From a virus, in the IMG/VR virus record IMGVR_UViG_3300025101_000058, positions 1 through 39,615 of that record: 39,615 nt of DNA. One strand, 5' to 3'. The position numbers and the translations under genes are program-made. The stretch's first letter is position 1. Every line of letters begins with the position of its first letter. Below the pieces are notes generated by a model, which saw only the letters and a program-made list of their open reading frames with translations, had not been told where the DNA came from and did no database searches. This document shows positions 19,586 to 35,046 of the stretch, in pieces.

Positions 19586-20191
19586 ATGGCAATAGGACTC
19601 ACTCAAACAGTAGAATATGGGAATCAGCAAAAAGCTGCTCAATTGAGTGAATTTCTTGCGTCTTTAACCTCTACTGAAACTACTGCATTTAATTCTGGTG
19701 CTGATGGATCTAAGAACACTCTTGTTAAGTTTAAAGATTGGCAAAATAAAATATATGCTCAAGAAGTAGAGGCTACTAAAAGTGTTGCTGGTATTACTTC
19801 AAGATGTGCCATAGTTAATGATAGTGATGGAATACTTTTTGGTGTATATCCTCAGAATGTTTCAATATCTGATTTTAATCATCCACCAGGAACGACTGTT
19901 GTTGGTATAGCAAGTACATATTTTAGTGGATCAGAATGTAATGTACATGCTGGATGGAAATATACAACATCTGCTGGATTCTTTAATCCTAATCTACCTA
20001 GTAATGATGATTATCTTAAAATACTTAGAGAAACTAGAGATCTACTTCTTACTCAATCCGATTGGACTCAGAGTAGAGATGTAACTCTATCAAATGATAA
20101 TGACTGGAAAACTTATAGGCAAACTTTAAGAGATCTTCCTGCAAATACTGCTGATCCTAGCAACCCAACTTGGCCTACTAAACCATCATGA
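19586..20191 (+). CDS. Virion-associated protein with tail assembly chaperone-like C-terminus (201 aa)
   Basis: A 201-residue protein. Its last 60 residues carry ILRETRDLLLTQSDWTQSRD, WKTYRQTLRDLPANT and WPTKP, the R..LL..sDWTQ..D...WK.YRQ.LRDLP...WPt.P signature of small phage tail assembly chaperone-like domains that accompany fibre genes. The N-terminal 130 residues (TQTVEYGNQQKAAQLSEFL, HAGWKYTTSAGFFNP) are specific to marine phage proteins I cannot name. It sits between the two collagen-like fibres and overlaps the second by 4 bases (ATGA), suggesting a role in fibre folding or attachment. A second gene with the same ending lies at 23287. Confidence 0.65.
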   Translation: MAIGLTQTVEYGNQQKAAQLSEFLASLTSTETTAFNSGADGSKNTLVKFKDWQNKIYAQEVEATKSVAGITSRCAIVNDSDGILFGVYPQNVSISDFNHPPGTTVVGIASTYFSGSECNVHAGWKYTTSAGFFNPNLPSNDDYLKILRETRDLLLTQSDWTQSRDVTLSNDNDWKTYRQTLRDLPANTADPSNPTWPTKPS

Positions 20192-22953
20192 GCGTTATAT
20201 CCTTTCCCATAAATCCTAATGTAGGTGATACATATTCTTTCGGTAGTTCTACTTGGAAGTGGAATGGTTATGCTTGGACTAGAATACCTGATCCTGGTGC
20301 AAAAGGTGAATCGGGTGGACCTGGTGGTGATGGAGATAAGGGTGAAATTGGTACTAAAGGTGATAAAGGTGCTCAAGGACCTACTGGTGAAAAAGGTGAT
20401 GCATCTGTTGTTCCTGGACCTATAGGACCTAAAGGTGAGGTAGGTGATAAAGGACAGAAAGGAGATGTAGAAGCAAAAGGTAACAAGGGTGAAGTAGGTG
20501 ATAAGGGACAAAAAGGTGAAATAGGACCAAAAGGTGATAAAGGTGCTGATGGTGCTGATGGTCAAAAAGGTGAGGTTGGTTCCCAAGGTTTAGTAGGTGA
20601 TAAGGGTGATGTAGGACAAAAAGGTGAACTGGGTATAGGTCAAAAGGGTCAAAAGGGTGAATTAGGTGCTGATGGAAATAAAGGTGATCTAGGTCAAAAG
20701 GGTGAAGTTGGTGTAGGACAAAAAGGGCAGAAAGGTGAACTTGGTCTTACTGGTGATAAAGGTACTAAAGGTGAAGTAGGATCACAGGGTACTGTAGGTG
20801 ATAAAGGTTCTACTGGAGATAAGGGAGATACTGGAGATAAAGGAGATAAAGGTGAACAATCTAATGTAGCAGGACCACAAGGTGAAAAAGGTGCTACTGG
20901 ATCAAAGGGTGATGATGGATCTGCAGGACCTCCAGGACCTTCAGGTGGACCTGTAGGACCAGGAGGAGATAAAGGTGATAAGGGTGATAAAGGAGATTTA
21001 GGATCTCAGGGTGGTACAGGTAATGAAGGTCAGAAGGGTGATCAAGGTATAAAAGGTGATGAAGGTCCTATTGGTCCTGGTGGTGGTCAAAAAGGAGAGA
21101 AAGGTGAGGTAGGTTCTCAAGGTATTCAAGGTCCTATAGGAAATACTGGTGATAAGGGTGAAAAAGGTGAAGTAGGATCTCAAGGTACTGTAGGGGATAA
21201 GGGACAGAAAGGAGAAATTGCTGAGAAAGGTCAGAAGGGTGAAGTAGGACAAAAAGGTGATACTGGTTCTCAAGGATCACAAGGTGTTCAAGGAGATAAG
21301 GGTGATAAAGGTGTTACTGGTAGTCAAGGTACTGTAGGTGATAAAGGAGACAAAGGAGATACTGGATCACAAGGTAGTGCTGGTGATAAAGGTGCTACTG
21401 GATCACAAGGTGTTCAAGGAGATAAGGGAGATAAAGGTGCTACTGGATCACAAGGTGATGTAGGAAACACTGGAGATAAGGGAGATAAAGGAGATACGGG
21501 TTCTCAAGGTATTACTGGAGATAAGGGAGACACAGGTTCTCAAGGTCCTGGTGGGGATAAGGGTGATGCATCTGTTGTTCCTGGACCTCAAGGAACTAAA
21601 GGTGAAGTTGGTCTTACTGGAGACAAAGGACAGAAGGGAGAAGTTGGTTCTCAAGGAATTCAAGGTCAGAAAGGTGAAGTAGGATCTCAAGGTATTCAAG
21701 GAGATAAAGGAGATAAAGGTGAAGTAGGAACTAAAGGAGAAGTTGGTGATAAGGGTGATAAAGGTGATCTAGGAACTAAAGGAGAAACTGGAGCAAGGGG
21801 ATTTACTGTAACAAATAGTGGTGCAAGTGATTATATTATCGATGGTGCTAATGATCCAGATCTTACTTTATTGAGAGGATTTACTTATATCTTTAATGTA
21901 AATGCAAGTGGACATCCTTTCTGGATTAAAACTTCTGCAACTACTGGAACTGGTAATGCATATAGTTCAGGAGTAACTAACAATGGTACTGCGTCAGGAT
22001 CTATAACATTTGCAGTTCCGTATAATGCACCTAATACTTTGTATTATATTTGCCAATATCATAGTGGTATGGTAGGTACTATTAATATTAGTGATGCTGG
22101 TCCGAAAGGTGAGGTTGGTGATAAAGGTGCTAAAGGTGAAGTAGGATCTCAAGGTATTCAAGGTGAAAAAGGTGTTAAAGGTGATGTAGAAGCAGCAGGT
22201 AATAAGGGTGAACCAGGTGATAAAGGTAATAAAGGTGATCTGAATGATAAGGGTCAAAAAGGTGAGATAGGTTCTGGTTCAGTTCCTTCAGGAGCTGTGA
22301 TGTTATTCTATCAAGCATCTGCTCCTACTGGATGGACTCAAGTAACAAGTGGTGTAAGTAATAAGGCACTTAGAGTGGTAGATGGAACTGGTGGTGGATC
22401 TGGCGGTAGTAATTCATTTACTAGTACTTTTGAGAATAAGAGTATAAGTGTAAGTGGATCTGGAAGTGCTAGTGGAAGTACAGGAAGTAGTGTTTCTGGA
22501 TCTACAAGTAGTGAAAATGCTGGATCTGTTAGTGTTAGTGGATCTGTTAGTGGTAATTGTAGTGGTAGTCAATACATTTACGCTAGTACCAGTCAAGTAA
22601 CATTAGCAACTAGTCAGATACCATCTCACGCTCACCAATATCATGCAAAAATTGGTACTTCTGGTGGTAATTATGGTTTTCTTGATCATTTAAATGCTGG
22701 TTCTTCAGGACAACCTAATACTAATAGTACTGGTGGAAGTGGAGCTCACAATCACTCATTAGTTAATTACCAAATATCTGGTTCCAACTTTAGTTTTAGT
22801 GATAGTTTTAGTGCTTCTGGTTCCCCTAGTAATCATAGTCACGATATAGGCAATCACTCTCACAGTTTCAGTGATAGTGTTAGTGTTAGTAGTTCTGGTA
22901 GTGTTGACTTGCGTGTTCAGTATGTTGATGTTATAATATGTTCAAAGGATTAA
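20188..22953 (+). CDS. Collagen-like tail fibre with embedded cupredoxin-like domain and HxH tip
   Basis: A 921-residue fibre. Residues 1-36 contain FPINPNVGDTYSFGSSTWKW, a short cap domain. Residues 37-537 are Gly-X-Y collagen repeats rich in GDK, GQK, GEV and GSQ. Residues 542-637 are a separate beta domain (LTLLRGFTYIFNVNASGHPF, then LYYICQYHSGMVGTI) with H576, C622, H625 and M628, the spacing of type-1 copper proteins. Residues 638-698 resume collagen repeats. From about 700 there is a tail-collar-like tip: SGAVMLFYQASAPTGWTQV, then Ser/Gly repeats and histidine pairs H814/H816, H854/H856, H883/H885 and H890/H892, ending LRVQYVDVIICSKD. HxH motifs in T4-type fibre tips bind metal. This is very likely a receptor-binding fibre. 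Confidence 0.82.
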   Translation: MSVISFPINPNVGDTYSFGSSTWKWNGYAWTRIPDPGAKGESGGPGGDGDKGEIGTKGDKGAQGPTGEKGDASVVPGPIGPKGEVGDKGQKGDVEAKGNKGEVGDKGQKGEIGPKGDKGADGADGQKGEVGSQGLVGDKGDVGQKGELGIGQKGQKGELGADGNKGDLGQKGEVGVGQKGQKGELGLTGDKGTKGEVGSQGTVGDKGSTGDKGDTGDKGDKGEQSNVAGPQGEKGATGSKGDDGSAGPPGPSGGPVGPGGDKGDKGDKGDLGSQGGTGNEGQKGDQGIKGDEGPIGPGGGQKGEKGEVGSQGIQGPIGNTGDKGEKGEVGSQGTVGDKGQKGEIAEKGQKGEVGQKGDTGSQGSQGVQGDKGDKGVTGSQGTVGDKGDKGDTGSQGSAGDKGATGSQGVQGDKGDKGATGSQGDVGNTGDKGDKGDTGSQGITGDKGDTGSQGPGGDKGDASVVPGPQGTKGEVGLTGDKGQKGEVGSQGIQGQKGEVGSQGIQGDKGDKGEVGTKGEVGDKGDKGDLGTKGETGARGFTVTNSGASDYIIDGANDPDLTLLRGFTYIFNVNASGHPFWIKTSATTGTGNAYSSGVTNNGTASGSITFAVPYNAPNTLYYICQYHSGMVGTINISDAGPKGEVGDKGAKGEVGSQGIQGEKGVKGDVEAAGNKGEPGDKGNKGDLNDKGQKGEIGSGSVPSGAVMLFYQASAPTGWTQVTSGVSNKALRVVDGTGGGSGGSNSFTSTFENKSISVSGSGSASGSTGSSVSGSTSSENAGSVSVSGSVSGNCSGSQYIYASTSQVTLATSQIPSHAHQYHAKIGTSGGNYGFLDHLNAGSSGQPNTNSTGGSGAHNHSLVNYQISGSNFSFSDSFSASGSPSNHSHDIGNHSHSFSDSVSVSSSGSVDLRVQYVDVIICSKD
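20296..21801 (+). repeat. Collagen-type 9-bp periodic repeat region, fibre 2
   Basis: About 500 codons of Gly-X-Y triplets with recurring longer blocks such as GEVGSQGIQG and GDASVVPGP. A second short block at about 22099-22275 follows the cupredoxin-like domain. Near-identical short DNA runs are shared with 17704-18576. Confidence 0.9.
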
Positions 22954-22957
22954 TATA

Positions 22958-23290
22958 ATGAAACTTGAGCAGGGTAAGTTCTGCCCTTTAATTGGTAAAG
23001 ATTGTATTCAAATGCAGTGTGCTTGGTTTACTCATGTTCGTGGTATGAATCCTAATACAGGAGAGGAAACTGATGAATATGGATGTGCAGTTACTTGGTT
23101 GCCTATGATGATGATTGAAAATTCTGGACAACAGAGAGCAACTTGTGCTTCTATTGAATCCTTTAGAAATGAAACTGTGAGATCAACTATGAAAGCACAA
23201 GAAATATATCAAAGAGAATTGGAATTAAAAGCTCAAGAGAGATTACAACAATCTAAGCAAATAAAAAATGTAACGGAGATAGAAGAATGA
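22958..23290 (+). CDS. Conserved Cys-containing small protein (110 aa), function unknown
   Basis: A 110-residue protein with a compact N-terminal half holding C9, C16, C21 and C43 (KFCPLIGKDCIQMQCAWF, DEYGCAVTWLPMM) plus C62, and a helical Lys/Glu/Gln-rich C-terminal half. The four closely placed cysteines suggest a metal or Fe-S site, or disulphides, but none is proven. I do not recognise a named family. It starts 4 bases after the collagen fibre stop and overlaps the next gene by 4 bases (ATGA), so it belongs to the fibre operon and may help assemble or attach the fibre. Confidence 0.65.
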   Translation: MKLEQGKFCPLIGKDCIQMQCAWFTHVRGMNPNTGEETDEYGCAVTWLPMMMIENSGQQRATCASIESFRNETVRSTMKAQEIYQRELELKAQERLQQSKQIKNVTEIEE

Positions 23291-23772
23291 AATTAACAGT
23301 CGTTCCATCTGATAAAACAATAATTATTGATACTGAAGGAGTGGTATGTAGTAATGTTGATCTTTCTTGGATTCCTACAGATGTTCATGCGATGCATTGG
23401 GATAGTTCAACAAACAAAGGTCACGTTGAATATACTACTGAAGGTAAATGGAATGAGGATATTACTGCAATAGGTATTTGGCAACAAGCAGTAACAGATC
23501 ATGCTAATGAAAAAACTGCTCAAGCAAATATAATAGAGGCAGCAAGAGATCATTTAGCAGAAGTAAAACAATATAGAAATGCTTTATTATCTTGGTCTGA
23601 TTGGACTCAAGGTAATGATTCTCCATTAGGTTCTAGTAAGAAAACTGAGTGGCAAACATATAGACAAGCATTAAGAGATATTCCAGCAACTATAGCAGCA
23701 GATAGTGGTTTAACTGCGAAGGCGATGGCAGATGACTTTACACATTCCAGTTGGCCGACAAAACCTACATAA
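23287..23772 (+). CDS. Second protein with tail assembly chaperone-like C-terminus (161 aa)
   Basis: A 161-residue protein. The first 75 residues (KLTVVPSDKTIIIDTEGVVC, HAMHWDSSTNKGHVEY) form a beta-rich domain resembling small proteins found beside phage fibres. The C-terminal part repeats the signature seen at 19586: VKQYRNALLSWSDWTQGND, WQTYRQALRDIP and WPTKP. It overlaps the preceding gene by 4 bases and sits just upstream of the hydroxylase gene. The repeated fibre-then-chaperone order suggests each collagen-like fibre has its own helper. The function is inferred from the domain and context. Confidence 0.65.
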   Translation: MKLTVVPSDKTIIIDTEGVVCSNVDLSWIPTDVHAMHWDSSTNKGHVEYTTEGKWNEDITAIGIWQQAVTDHANEKTAQANIIEAARDHLAEVKQYRNALLSWSDWTQGNDSPLGSSKKTEWQTYRQALRDIPATIAADSGLTAKAMADDFTHSSWPTKPT

Positions 23773-23786
23773 GTTAAAATTTTATT

Positions 23787-24422
23787 ATGGAAGAATTGAT
23801 TCAAACTATTAAATTTTTAGATTTTGATCAGTTAAAGGAAATAAATGATTATATTGATACATTAGAATTATTTCAGAGTAAAGTTTTTGATCACTCTGAT
23901 GGAAAGAAAGATGCGTGTAAACAAGATTCTGATGTTAGAACAAGTGTAAGTGCTTCATTAAAGGAATCGCATGAAGTAACTAAGATAATACACAAAAGTA
24001 TGAATGATGCGTTACTTGTTTATAGAGATAGAGTAAGTAAAATATGTTCAACATTTAAGTATTATCCTGTTCCTGGTGGATATTCGACAACATCTAATCG
24101 AGAAAGTATTCAAATTCTTCAATATACTGATAATCAGGAATATAAATTTCATACTGATCAAAGTCCAGATAAAAGAGCATATGAATTTGATAGAAAAATA
24201 TCAATAGTTCTTTATTTGACTGGTGGTTTTGAAGGTGGTGGAACTGAATTTCCACATTTAACACTCAAACCAAAACCAGGATATGGTTTAATATTTCCTT
24301 CAAATTGGTGTTATCCTCATTCTGGACAGAAAGTAACTAAAGGATGTAAAAGAGTTGCAGTTAGTTGGTATTATGTGGATAGACAACTTGAAGTTATTAA
24401 GGATGAGAGTGTGAAAGGTTGA
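23787..24422 (+). CDS. Prolyl 4-hydroxylase-type 2OG/Fe(II) oxygenase
   Basis: A 211-residue protein with a full 2OG-Fe(II) oxygenase core of the P4H type: H122 and D124 in YKFHTDQS, a GGFEGGGTEFPHLTLKP segment, GYGLIFPSNWCYPHSG with the distal iron ligand H178, and K188 in TKGCKRVAVSWYY for the 2-oxoglutarate carboxylate. P4H enzymes hydroxylate prolines in proteins, and some relatives act on other residues or nucleic acids. Length is typical for phage P4H-like proteins. It lies in the fibre cluster right after the two collagen-like fibre genes, so a fibre substrate is plausible but unproven; such oxygenases also occur in phages without collagen genes. Probably expressed late with its neighbours. 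Confidence 0.85.
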   Translation: MEELIQTIKFLDFDQLKEINDYIDTLELFQSKVFDHSDGKKDACKQDSDVRTSVSASLKESHEVTKIIHKSMNDALLVYRDRVSKICSTFKYYPVPGGYSTTSNRESIQILQYTDNQEYKFHTDQSPDKRAYEFDRKISIVLYLTGGFEGGGTEFPHLTLKPKPGYGLIFPSNWCYPHSGQKVTKGCKRVAVSWYYVDRQLEVIKDESVKG

Positions 24423-32343: not shown

Positions 32344-35046
32344 ATGAGTATTAGTGTAACAAAGGCAGGACCATATTTCGCTTCAGGTGAAATTAAGTGG
32401 AGTCAACTTAGATCAAATTTTAAAGAAACTTCTAGTGGATCTATTTCTGCCTCTGAGTTGTTTAGGAATACTAGAAAGGAAGAAAGAAATCCTGTAGTCC
32501 CTGATTCTACTGAAAATACTTCTATACCCGAAGATACCTATGCAAATGGAACATTTGATGGAGTAGGTACTGATTGGAAAGCATCTTTGATGCGAAATTC
32601 TATTAAGAGATATACTGCAAATCAATCTGGTAATGATAAATTCTTGGATATGGGTCTAAAGAATGGTTCAGATGGAATTGATTGGGATGGTAATAATAAC
32701 TTAGATGCCTCTGGTGCAACAACTGGAAATTATCAAAGAAATGTACAAAAGATAATTAATATAACTGGACAGGCATATTCTGACGATACTGGTACTAATG
32801 GATTAACTGGTGATGGTGGAGTAGGAAGTGGTAAAAAACCAGGTGCTAAATTGGTATTGCCATCACCATTAAAAGCATTGAATACAAGGATTCATGTTAG
32901 TGGTGGAATATACGGTTCTGCTGGAAGGGCAGGATTTTTTAATTTTAATACTCAGGCAGATAAAACATTAAGTGATCCTGGTAAAGATGCAGGAGCAGCA
33001 TTAACAATTAGACACGAAGGATCTGAGAGTAGAACTACAATTCATATTGAAGGTAGTGGTAAGATTTATGGTGGTGGTGGAGGAGGAGAACAAGGACAAA
33101 TGGGTGCATTACCTGTCCAAGCAGGTCTTTGTGACAGAGGATATTCAACATCTTGTAGTACATCACTATCAATGGGTGGATTTACTGATGGATGTTCAGG
33201 TGGTGGCGATCCATGTCCTGGTGGTTCAGTATATGCTACACTCTTTATTGCAACATTACCCTGTTCTCCAGGAACTTGGGCAAATCCTACTAATGGATTT
33301 GGTACAATTTATGGTCACATGTGCCAATATACTTCATGTTCTACCGTATATCTAGGATCTTATACTTCAACTACACCCGAACAAGGTAGAGGTGGTGCTG
33401 GTGGTGAAGGTGCTGGATGGGGATTTAGAAATTTTGTTGGTGGTGGTCCACAAGAAAGGCAATCAGGTTCTGCTGGAATACCGAATGTCCCTGCTAAATG
33501 TTCTGGTGGAGAAAATCCTGATGGTGCTGCAAACTCAACTCCTGGTGGTGCAGGTGGAGATGGTGGTGATTATGGTCAACCAGGTGGAAGCACTCTTGGT
33601 AAAAGTCCTCTTGCTACTGGTCTAGATCAGGGAGAAGGTGGTGGTAAAGGTGGTGCTGCAATATGTGGTAAGTTTTTTGATCCAAACATTCAAGGATCTC
33701 AAGGTGCTGCTAGTGTAAAAGGTAGTGTTGGACTAGAATGTGATGGATCTGCTGGAACCCCAGTTCCTCCTGGTCAAGTTCCTGTTGTATCAGTAGAACA
33801 TACTCAACATATTAGATTTAACTTTCCAGAAAATGATGCAACAGGTAAGCAAACATTAAACGTAACTAGTGCTTCTGACGGAACACAAGTTCAATGTAAA
33901 TTCTATCAAACACAAGATGATTATTCTGATGTTGGTGGAGTAGCATTTGACAAGATCGAGATTAAGAATTCCTCTGGAACTGTCGTATATTCATATACCA
34001 GATCTGTTAATAGAATTAATACTTATCTATCTCCTGTTTTAACTTTACCTGAAGGATTGTATGATGTAGAGTTTACTAATCTATCTCAAGCTGGAAATAG
34101 ACCAGCAAACGGTGGTAATTATTTGAGAAACGAGAGAATAAAAGAATACGGACAGAAACTAGTTTTCCATGATGATGGAAATAATCCTAATAAGAGAAAT
34201 GGTGATCTTACAATAGTTCCTGCTAACTGGTCTCCTGCTACTACAACAACATGGGTTAATTCATATGATTCTGCATTACATAGTGGTAAAGATTCTAATG
34301 GAGATTGGGAATATATTGCAATGAAGCAATATTGGTCACAGTTTATGCGTGATTATGCTGCTTGGGAAAATAGCACTGATCCAAAAACACAGAATGGAGA
34401 TGTTTCATTTACTAACACTTGGGTTTGGAAGATAACTGATACTGCTAAAGTTGGACAATACACGTTCGAGATTCAGTCAGATAATAGATGTGAGTGGAAT
34501 ATAGATGCTATTCCAAAAGGAGCTACTACTGACTATGATAGTCATTACCCTGCCAATTCCAATACCAGTCAAATGGGTAAATGGGAAACTACAGGTACTT
34601 CTGGTGGAATAAGTTATACTGATGGTACACCATATACACAAGGATTTGGTTTAGGAGATCATACAATAACAATTAAATGTTTTAATAGAAAATTTGTTTC
34701 AGGTAATGATCCTGAAGATTGGCAACATAACCCTGCTGGAGTGGCATTTACTCTGAAAGATCCTCAAGGAAATATTGTATTAACATCTTCTGATTTGGAT
34801 CAAACTGAAGGAACTACTTTTGGTAGAGGAACTATTTCATGGAGTGCTACGAATGTAGATCCTGCTGGTAATGCTACTGATTCTGTTTATGCAGTAATGA
34901 ATCCTTTTGATGGTAATTTCATTATTACACCTAATGTAACATCTGGACAGTCAACATTTGCACCTACCTTTGGTCAGCAAAGATATGAGATATATGCTTC
35001 CAATACTAATGGAACATCATTCCCTGCGGTAGTAACCATTAAATAA
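32344..35046 (+). CDS. Glycine-rich adhesin-like virion protein (900 aa)
   Basis: A 900-residue protein closing the late cluster. Residues 1-110 form a head conserved in marine T4-like fibres (VTKAGPYFASGEIKWSQLR, DWKASLMRNSIKRY). From about 240 to 480 it is very Gly-rich (IYGGGGGGEQGQMG, GRGGAGGEGAGWGF, GGGKGGAAICGKFF) with many Cys at about 260-345 (LCDRGYSTSCSTS, DGCSGGGDPCPGG), recalling polyglycine adhesin tips that bind host receptors. The C-terminal 400 residues are beta-sandwich-like: VGQYTFEIQSDNRCEWNID and GLGDHTITIKCFNRKF suggest a PA14-like carbohydrate-binding fold, but this is tentative. It is followed by the strong terminator at 35134. Confidence 0.65.
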   Translation: MSISVTKAGPYFASGEIKWSQLRSNFKETSSGSISASELFRNTRKEERNPVVPDSTENTSIPEDTYANGTFDGVGTDWKASLMRNSIKRYTANQSGNDKFLDMGLKNGSDGIDWDGNNNLDASGATTGNYQRNVQKIINITGQAYSDDTGTNGLTGDGGVGSGKKPGAKLVLPSPLKALNTRIHVSGGIYGSAGRAGFFNFNTQADKTLSDPGKDAGAALTIRHEGSESRTTIHIEGSGKIYGGGGGGEQGQMGALPVQAGLCDRGYSTSCSTSLSMGGFTDGCSGGGDPCPGGSVYATLFIATLPCSPGTWANPTNGFGTIYGHMCQYTSCSTVYLGSYTSTTPEQGRGGAGGEGAGWGFRNFVGGGPQERQSGSAGIPNVPAKCSGGENPDGAANSTPGGAGGDGGDYGQPGGSTLGKSPLATGLDQGEGGGKGGAAICGKFFDPNIQGSQGAASVKGSVGLECDGSAGTPVPPGQVPVVSVEHTQHIRFNFPENDATGKQTLNVTSASDGTQVQCKFYQTQDDYSDVGGVAFDKIEIKNSSGTVVYSYTRSVNRINTYLSPVLTLPEGLYDVEFTNLSQAGNRPANGGNYLRNERIKEYGQKLVFHDDGNNPNKRNGDLTIVPANWSPATTTTWVNSYDSALHSGKDSNGDWEYIAMKQYWSQFMRDYAAWENSTDPKTQNGDVSFTNTWVWKITDTAKVGQYTFEIQSDNRCEWNIDAIPKGATTDYDSHYPANSNTSQMGKWETTGTSGGISYTDGTPYTQGFGLGDHTITIKCFNRKFVSGNDPEDWQHNPAGVAFTLKDPQGNIVLTSSDLDQTEGTTFGRGTISWSATNVDPAGNATDSVYAVMNPFDGNFIITPNVTSGQSTFAPTFGQQRYEIYASNTNGTSFPAVVTIK

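Follow-up and report, generated by a model that had tools for sequence, protein, structure and literature searches.

A phage tail fibre carries a cupredoxin domain with a complete set of type-1 copper ligands

The marine cyanophage fragment analysed here (IMG/VR record IMGVR_UViG_3300025101_000058; 39,615 bases, hereafter the window) encodes a 921-amino-acid (aa) collagen-like tail fibre, whose Gly-X-Y shaft is interrupted by a domain with the cupredoxin fold and the complete ligand set of a type-1 copper site. The conserved residues and the structural model make it likely that this domain, comprising residues 542–637, binds copper, and we lean slightly towards regarding it as a type-1-like cupredoxin that serves as an optional stabilising or surface cassette of virion fibres.

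An earlier note on this DNA had proposed that these residues break the shaft. The open reading frame (ORF) is present as described, with shaft blocks up to residue 540 and a resumption of the repeat at residue 638; of the coordinates given there (21811–22100) the start holds, whereas the last codon ends two bases earlier, at 22098. H576, C622, H625 and M628 are the sole His, Cys and Met residues within residues 535–645 of the fibre. The first His precedes the Cys by 46 residues, and the remaining ligands form a C-x2-H-x2-M loop. Comparison with the ligands tabulated in PMC517927 bears out the resemblance already remarked upon in that note, to plastocyanin in the His-to-Cys distance (H37/C84/H87/M92, distance 47) and to amicyanin in the loop (H53/C92/H95/M98). 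Contamination or an assembly error is ruled out by the identical domain on four further IMG/VR contigs (L002–L005) and by the domain-bearing syntenic fibre of Prochlorococcus phage P-SSM2.

Structural and profile comparisons place the domain among cupredoxins

The window domain and 34 relatives were aligned (A1), and this alignment served as input for an AlphaFold2 model and for profile searches. The model comprises eight strands and is of high confidence (mean predicted local distance difference test score, pLDDT, 96.7; predicted template modelling score, pTM, 0.88). C83 of the model (C622) ends the strand 78–83, H86 and M89 (H625 and M628) lie in the loop leading to strand 90–96, and H37 (H576) is found just ahead of strand 39–42, which in the model is the strand and loop layout of a cupredoxin copper site. 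These secondary-structure positions, together with the structural matches and the profile alignment described below, suggest that the four ligands cluster in space. A Foldseek search against the PDB returned ten matches at E ≤ 1e-3, all ten of them cupredoxins (rusticyanin, AcoP and plastocyanin), with weaker rows further down including a titin domain, dystroglycan and other beta sandwiches. Upon re-alignment with VIA, the best match was rusticyanin 2cal (Z 10.2, root-mean-square deviation 2.0 over 88 residues), and all 50 matches listed have a cupredoxin fold, nearly all being copper proteins or multicopper oxidases. The eight-strand model and the top matches of both searches hence assign the domain to the cupredoxin fold superfamily. 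A full-length model of a gp9-like carrier (alignment A2) reached a pLDDT of 34.8 and was set aside. In a separate fold search of BFVD, small “beta-sandwich proteins” of Pithovirus and Marseillevirus genomes also matched the domain model (TM 0.76–0.79 on the query).

Profile searches gave a similar picture. The A1 profile matched 43 PDB sequences at E ≤ 10, the majority being blue copper proteins, with Cu nitrite reductase (6.6e-4), plastocyanins (from 0.0054), azurin and amicyanins as best chains and six weakly scoring antibody chains among the 43. In the four printed plastocyanin alignments of this search, Cys, the second His and Met align in every case and the first His in two. The Pfam Copper-bind model matched ten of the 35 A1 members at E ≤ 1 (best E 0.0027), and an hhalign comparison with six proteins that pass the Copper-bind cut-off, a single comparison, yielded 94.5% probability and an E value of 7.4e-8, with the His, Cys, His and Met columns of both profiles superposed. 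From the Copper-bind column alignment, the PDB profile search and ligand conservation, the His-Cys-His set occupies the known positions of a type-1 site. NCBIfam models for amicyanin, halocyanin, plastocyanin, rusticyanin and pseudoazurin each weakly match some members; the amicyanin model matches the most (six of 35, all weak, best E 0.0056), and this model (TIGR02657) gave no match to the window domain itself at 0.1. A weak match to Pfam PF25489 (At5g54830-like) in seven of the 35 members (best E 2.6e-4) hints at a eukaryotic relative. Fold and ligand set, as claimed in the earlier note, are well supported by the model, the fold search, profile comparison and ligand conservation; copper binding and the role, also raised there, we infer from these results.

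The ligand residues are kept or lost as a unit

Ligand conservation was assessed with an iterated profile over the window and 263 further loci, which yielded 462 domain rows, 314 of them distinct. All ligand columns are spanned by 247 distinct rows, and 44 more could be scored at the Cys column, resulting in 291 scorable domains; 23 half-hits (15 N-terminal halves with the His, six C-terminal halves with C-H-M and two others) were excluded. The rows are related to one another, and the following counts do not represent independent events. Among the 247 spanning domains the ligand sets are His-Cys-His-Met in 228, with axial Gln in 11, axial His in two and axial Ala in one, and the set is lost in five, a table that understates ligand-less copies, most of which do not span all columns, and that the count over 291 rows corrects. 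In the latter, His-Cys-His is intact in 243 domains and missing in 48. None of the 291 keeps exactly two of the three residues: the 48 ligand-poor domains retain at most one, and 40 of them retain none. Homologues therefore do not lose the ligands freely, the check that the earlier note had called for.

The four ligand columns rank 2, 3, 4 and 14 in conservation among 91 columns, which rules out a chance grouping of these residues. Both synonymous codons are in use at the His, Cys and His positions. The loop C-x2-H-x2-[axial residue] is found in each of 242 measured domains, and 236 of the 242 contain a single Cys without a disulfide partner, ruling out a disulfide role. The axial residue of the 243 intact domains is Met in 229, Gln in 11, His in two and Ala in one. 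According to the table in PMC517927, Gln is the natural axial ligand of stellacyanin, umecyanin and auracyanin, and the M98A variant of amicyanin has been solved with Cu(II), as the title of entry 2idq states.

Every one of the 48 ligand-poor domains is accompanied by an intact copy in the same ORF, and nearly all of them are extra copies in a protein of ~996 aa adjoining gp9. Since the fold persists without the site, the ligand residues are not needed for folding. Where present, the site is kept as a unit, all or none, and this pattern is the main argument for predicting metal binding. The ~996-aa ORF downstream of gp9 (L106, L133 and others) harbors several divergent copies of the domain, one of them intact; the remaining copies of this baseplate-region protein have lost all ligands or carry Gln at the axial position, which amounts to a natural experiment on the copper site.

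The domain recurs in structural proteins of marine phages

With tblastn (E ≤ 0.01), 364 of 50,697 phage records proved to contain the domain, at 376 places in all. Nearly all carriers infect Synechococcus or Prochlorococcus, the remainder being three Pelagibacter phages, one actinobacterial phage and a few others; a plasmid collection contained no match to the domain. Regions were fetched from 23 phage records, identified by tblastn without peptide patterns, and the best domain carries all four ligands in 22 of them, the exception being S-CAM3 with an axial Ala and H, C and H kept. The A1 profile matches one to four places in each of these records. In three scans of IMG/VR, relatives were encoded by 475, 484 and at least 594 stretches, with 80 loci kept from each; the scans relied on six peptide patterns, of which one or two included ligands, and relatives of other kinds that lack the ligands may be under-sampled.

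Carriers include a pelagiphage putative tail fibre, a podophage protein, S8 peptidase proteins and further tail fibres of P-SSM2, as well as gp9-like baseplate proteins that have the domain at their C-terminus and match T4 gp9/gp10 with their N-terminus. The latter correspond to PHROG 677, the gp9-like baseplate wedge tail fibre connector of T4-type cyanophages, the C-terminal domain of which (profile positions 311–410) matches the window domain with an E value of 5.7e-27. The gp9-annotated examples inspected have all four ligands and, unlike the window fibre, a T4 gp9/gp10-like N-terminus and no collagen shaft. Recurrence in tail and baseplate proteins of hundreds of phages suggests that the virions of these phages may bind copper. 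In the portions available of two virion proteome papers (PMC10665884, PMC9602691), no domain-bearing gene could be tied to a detected protein, and PMC2984593 offered general context for gene 9 and petE only. A free plastocyanin gene fused by error is ruled out by the collagen flanks on both sides and by the structural annotation of most annotated carriers.

In a set of genomes from 84,980 species, the window query found 25 loci, with Acidobacteriota, Myxococcota, Verrucomicrobiota, Bacteroidota, Pseudomonadota and others among the bacterial phyla. Many of the bacterial carriers have N-termini that look secreted or lipoprotein-like as judged by eye, and two of the tested ones are fusions with Lipoprotein_15 repeats (PF03640). 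The flavobacterial lipoprotein-like proteins L281 and L286 combine such repeats with one or two cupredoxins. Of 40 bacterial domains, 38 have the C-x2-H-x2-M loop, one has Gln instead and one is cut off. In a tree of 125 rows and 100 columns, many forks of which are unresolved, bacterial domains are interspersed with phage ones; its starred branches require that the bacterial label was gained or lost at least twice, a pattern that fits module exchange. The domain is hence not special to the window fibre: the tail and baseplate proteins of marine phages use it widely as a module, and so do secreted bacterial proteins.

An optional cassette in long fibres

Relatives of the fibre tip were collected in a scan that yielded 33 loci, 27 with complete and six with cut ORFs. 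The domain is present in 11 of the complete ORFs (592–1323 aa from stop to stop) and absent from the 16 shorter ones (305–452 aa); three of the six cut ORFs carry it. The sample contains several near copies, including four of the window's own fibre type and a group of four short ORFs identical to each other; the match of the more remote short relatives to the tip is partial. As short relatives lack it, a fibre of this build does not require the domain, which in this sample accompanies long shafts. Collagen-like flanks were scored in a first set of 88 domains: strict Gly-X-Y repeats occur on both sides in 29 and on the N-terminal side only in 21, by a cut-off that overlooked some collagen flanks.

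Genomic context of the fibre gene

The closest named relatives of the window are the Prochlorococcus myoviruses P-SSM2 and P-SSM5, with 78.6–78.8% identity over 23% of a 24-kb query. The fibre gene is part of a series of baseplate and fibre genes (Table 1), and the syntenic gene of P-SSM2, PSSM2_028, has the same domain within its own collagen shaft, with all ligands present.

Table 1 Features of the fibre gene and its surroundings, in window coordinates
Feature	Position	Strand	Basis
921-aa collagen-like tail fibre gene	20188..22953	+	ORF; Pfam Collagen 5.1e-67; PHROG tail fibre families
N-terminal Gly-X-Y shaft, residues 37-540, ten blocks with short breaks	20296..21807	+	Gly-X-Y run analysis
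Cupredoxin domain, residues 542-637	21811..22098	+	AlphaFold2 model; Foldseek and VIA cupredoxin matches; family hidden Markov model E 4e-41 in window
H576, predicted first His ligand (G-H-P-F motif)	21913..21915	+	His in 243/247 distinct spanning homologues
C622, predicted thiolate ligand; sole Cys of domain; end of the model's seventh strand	22051..22053	+	Cys in 242/247
H625, predicted second His ligand	22060..22062	+	His in 245/247
M628, predicted axial ligand	22069..22071	+	Met 228/247, Gln 11/247
C-terminal Gly-X-Y shaft, residues 638 to ~685	22099..22242	+	Gly-X-Y run analysis
Fibre tip, residues 686-921, His-rich with HxH motifs	22243..22950	+	Sequence; tail-fibre PHROGs over 22105-22950; relatives
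Tail fibre assembly-like gene directly upstream of fibre gene	19586..20191	+	PHROG 8716, 4912
Second tail fibre assembly-like gene, close downstream of fibre gene	23287..23772	+	PHROG 4912
2-oxoglutarate (2OG)-Fe(II) oxygenase among fibre genes; piuC in P-SSM2	23787-24422		PHROG 61
900-aa ORF	32344-35046		No PHROG match at E <= 0.001

HxH motifs are abundant in the fibre tip (SHAHQYH, AHNHS, NHSHDIGNHSHS), and the iron-binding motifs reported for other tail fibres resemble them. The window fibre may hold two kinds of metal site, one in the tip and one in the cupredoxin domain. A comparison of the tip with the PDB revealed no convincing relative (two nanobodies, E 0.4 and 0.47).

Discussion

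Rusticyanin and AcoP are respiratory electron carriers and amicyanin is a free periplasmic one, whereas the window domain is part of a virion fibre. Rusticyanin and AcoP provide its best Foldseek and Z matches; rusticyanin differs by a longer ligand loop (C138/H143/M148 in the table of PMC517927) and shares 20% identity in the best row. Amicyanin (1aac, 3ply), found by both the PDB profile search and Foldseek, has the same loop and differs in its His-to-Cys spacing (39 compared with 46), with ~17% identity for 3ply. Plastocyanin (2plt, 2pcy) shares fold, the four ligands, nearly the same spacing, the Y-x-C-x2-H motif and a following M-x-G, whereas its His-Met loop is two residues longer; a photosynthetic role is not implied for the window domain.

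Provided that copper is bound, a structural or surface role is fairly probable. The type-1-like site formed by H576, C622, H625 and the axial M628, with its short amicyanin-like loop, would bind copper, and the domain would act as an optional, interchangeable beta-sandwich cassette of the virion. Because collagen-like fibres are trimers, three domains would sit at one level of the shaft, as a knot. With the metal locking its fold, the beta sandwich would resist unfolding, fix the register and stiffen or space the long shaft, and might also contact the host surface; on baseplate proteins the same module would form an exposed, stable knob. Swappable beta-sandwich domains are in general use in phage tails, a use that the proposed role would extend.

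Several observations weigh against this proposal. The cytosol, where phage proteins assemble, is thought to hold almost no free copper, so that copper loading would have to occur late, after release. The gp9-like carriers have no collagen adjoining the domain, and a role purely in shaft stiffening does not cover all carriers. The window domain scores 14.8 bits with Pfam PF00127 (Copper-bind), below the cut-off of 21.2 bits, and the evidence from the window sequence alone is weak. Moreover, the PROSITE type-1 copper pattern PS00196, as printed in PMC517927, matches none of the 247 spanning domains, because the Pro/Gly ahead of the second His is missing; the same table has no entry for this pattern in the case of amicyanin. 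These below-cut-off, weak or absent family matches indicate that the domain is a cupredoxin belonging to none of the named subfamilies tested.

An unlikely alternative to a structural or surface cassette is a redox-active copper site that exchanges electrons with the host envelope during infection, or that reports contact through an altered redox state or copper content in the fibre or baseplate. Electron transfer is the main task of known cupredoxins, according to PMC4059628; gp9/gp10-like baseplate proteins and host-meeting tail fibres are among the carriers, and in some bacterial relatives the domain is joined to secreted Lipoprotein_15 repeats. However, we see neither a redox partner nor a path for electrons, and no other redox domain is evident to us in the window fibre; fibres with related tips can do without the domain, and the axial residue varies freely, which would alter the potential. 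A related and bolder conception, to which we give little credence, is that copper acts as an infection cofactor of marine phages, with cupredoxins loaded outside the cytosol and a change in redox state or occupancy at the host surface during adsorption or triggering; abundant cyanophage and pelagiphage virions would then be multi-copper particles of copper-dependent infectivity.

It is quite improbable that the domain serves copper capture, either stripping copper from lysing hosts or seawater for the protection of progeny or delivering it to the host surface, comparable to the Ferrojan horse for iron. A type-1 site with its Cys binds copper tightly and plastocyanin constitutes a copper pool in the hosts, and the analogy with iron is already published. 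Against this stand the low copy number per phage genome, evident from the few matches in each of the fetched records, and the fact that no link to a copper receptor is known to us. Redox use and copper capture are both conjectural.

Another native metal such as zinc or iron, as in other phage tail tips, has an equally low probability in our estimation. HxH iron tail tips differ from the window domain in fold, ligands and metal, and cupredoxins accept other metals in vitro. Metal-bearing tail tips of the Ferrojan horse type likewise place metal in a host-contacting fibre, and PMC11705849 reports a tail fibre whose domains might bind iron. Yet the ligand set, the loop and the exchange of Met and Gln at the axial position fit type-1 copper rather than zinc or HxH iron sites. 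A metal-free, rigid scaffold with four merely structural residues is in our view very unlikely as well, for although the ligand-less copies adjoining gp9 remain recognisable and speak for a fold independent of the site, structural residues would decay singly, which the all-or-none pattern contradicts, and a conserved Cys without a partner in the domain is hard to explain without metal in secreted and virion proteins.

The fold and the site are known, whereas their place in the virion, their spread and their optional use there appear to be undescribed: searches made in open-licence literature turned up no account of a phage-tail cupredoxin. The results also bear on annotation. The “PetE” of Synechococcus phage S-SCSM2R (L085, PQ898602.1 170926-171432) groups with the gp9-like protein of S-SSM7 in the 100-column tree (Shimodaira–Hasegawa-like approximate likelihood ratio test, SH-aLRT, 99) and follows an S8 peptidase gene, as in S-SSM7. 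On account of this grouping and neighbour, it is probably a mis-annotated structural cupredoxin and not a plastocyanin acquired for photosynthesis, a warning for plastocyanin calls as phage metabolic genes.

If the preferred cassette indeed binds copper, the colour of the site, electron paramagnetic resonance (EPR) and inductively coupled plasma mass spectrometry (ICP-MS) would offer a visible handle on a fibre domain, and a role of the metal in adsorption would become testable via chelation and point mutation. Many T4-type cyanophages and some pelagiphages would then have copper proteins in the tail that meets the host, and copper would join iron in the discussion of marine virus particles.

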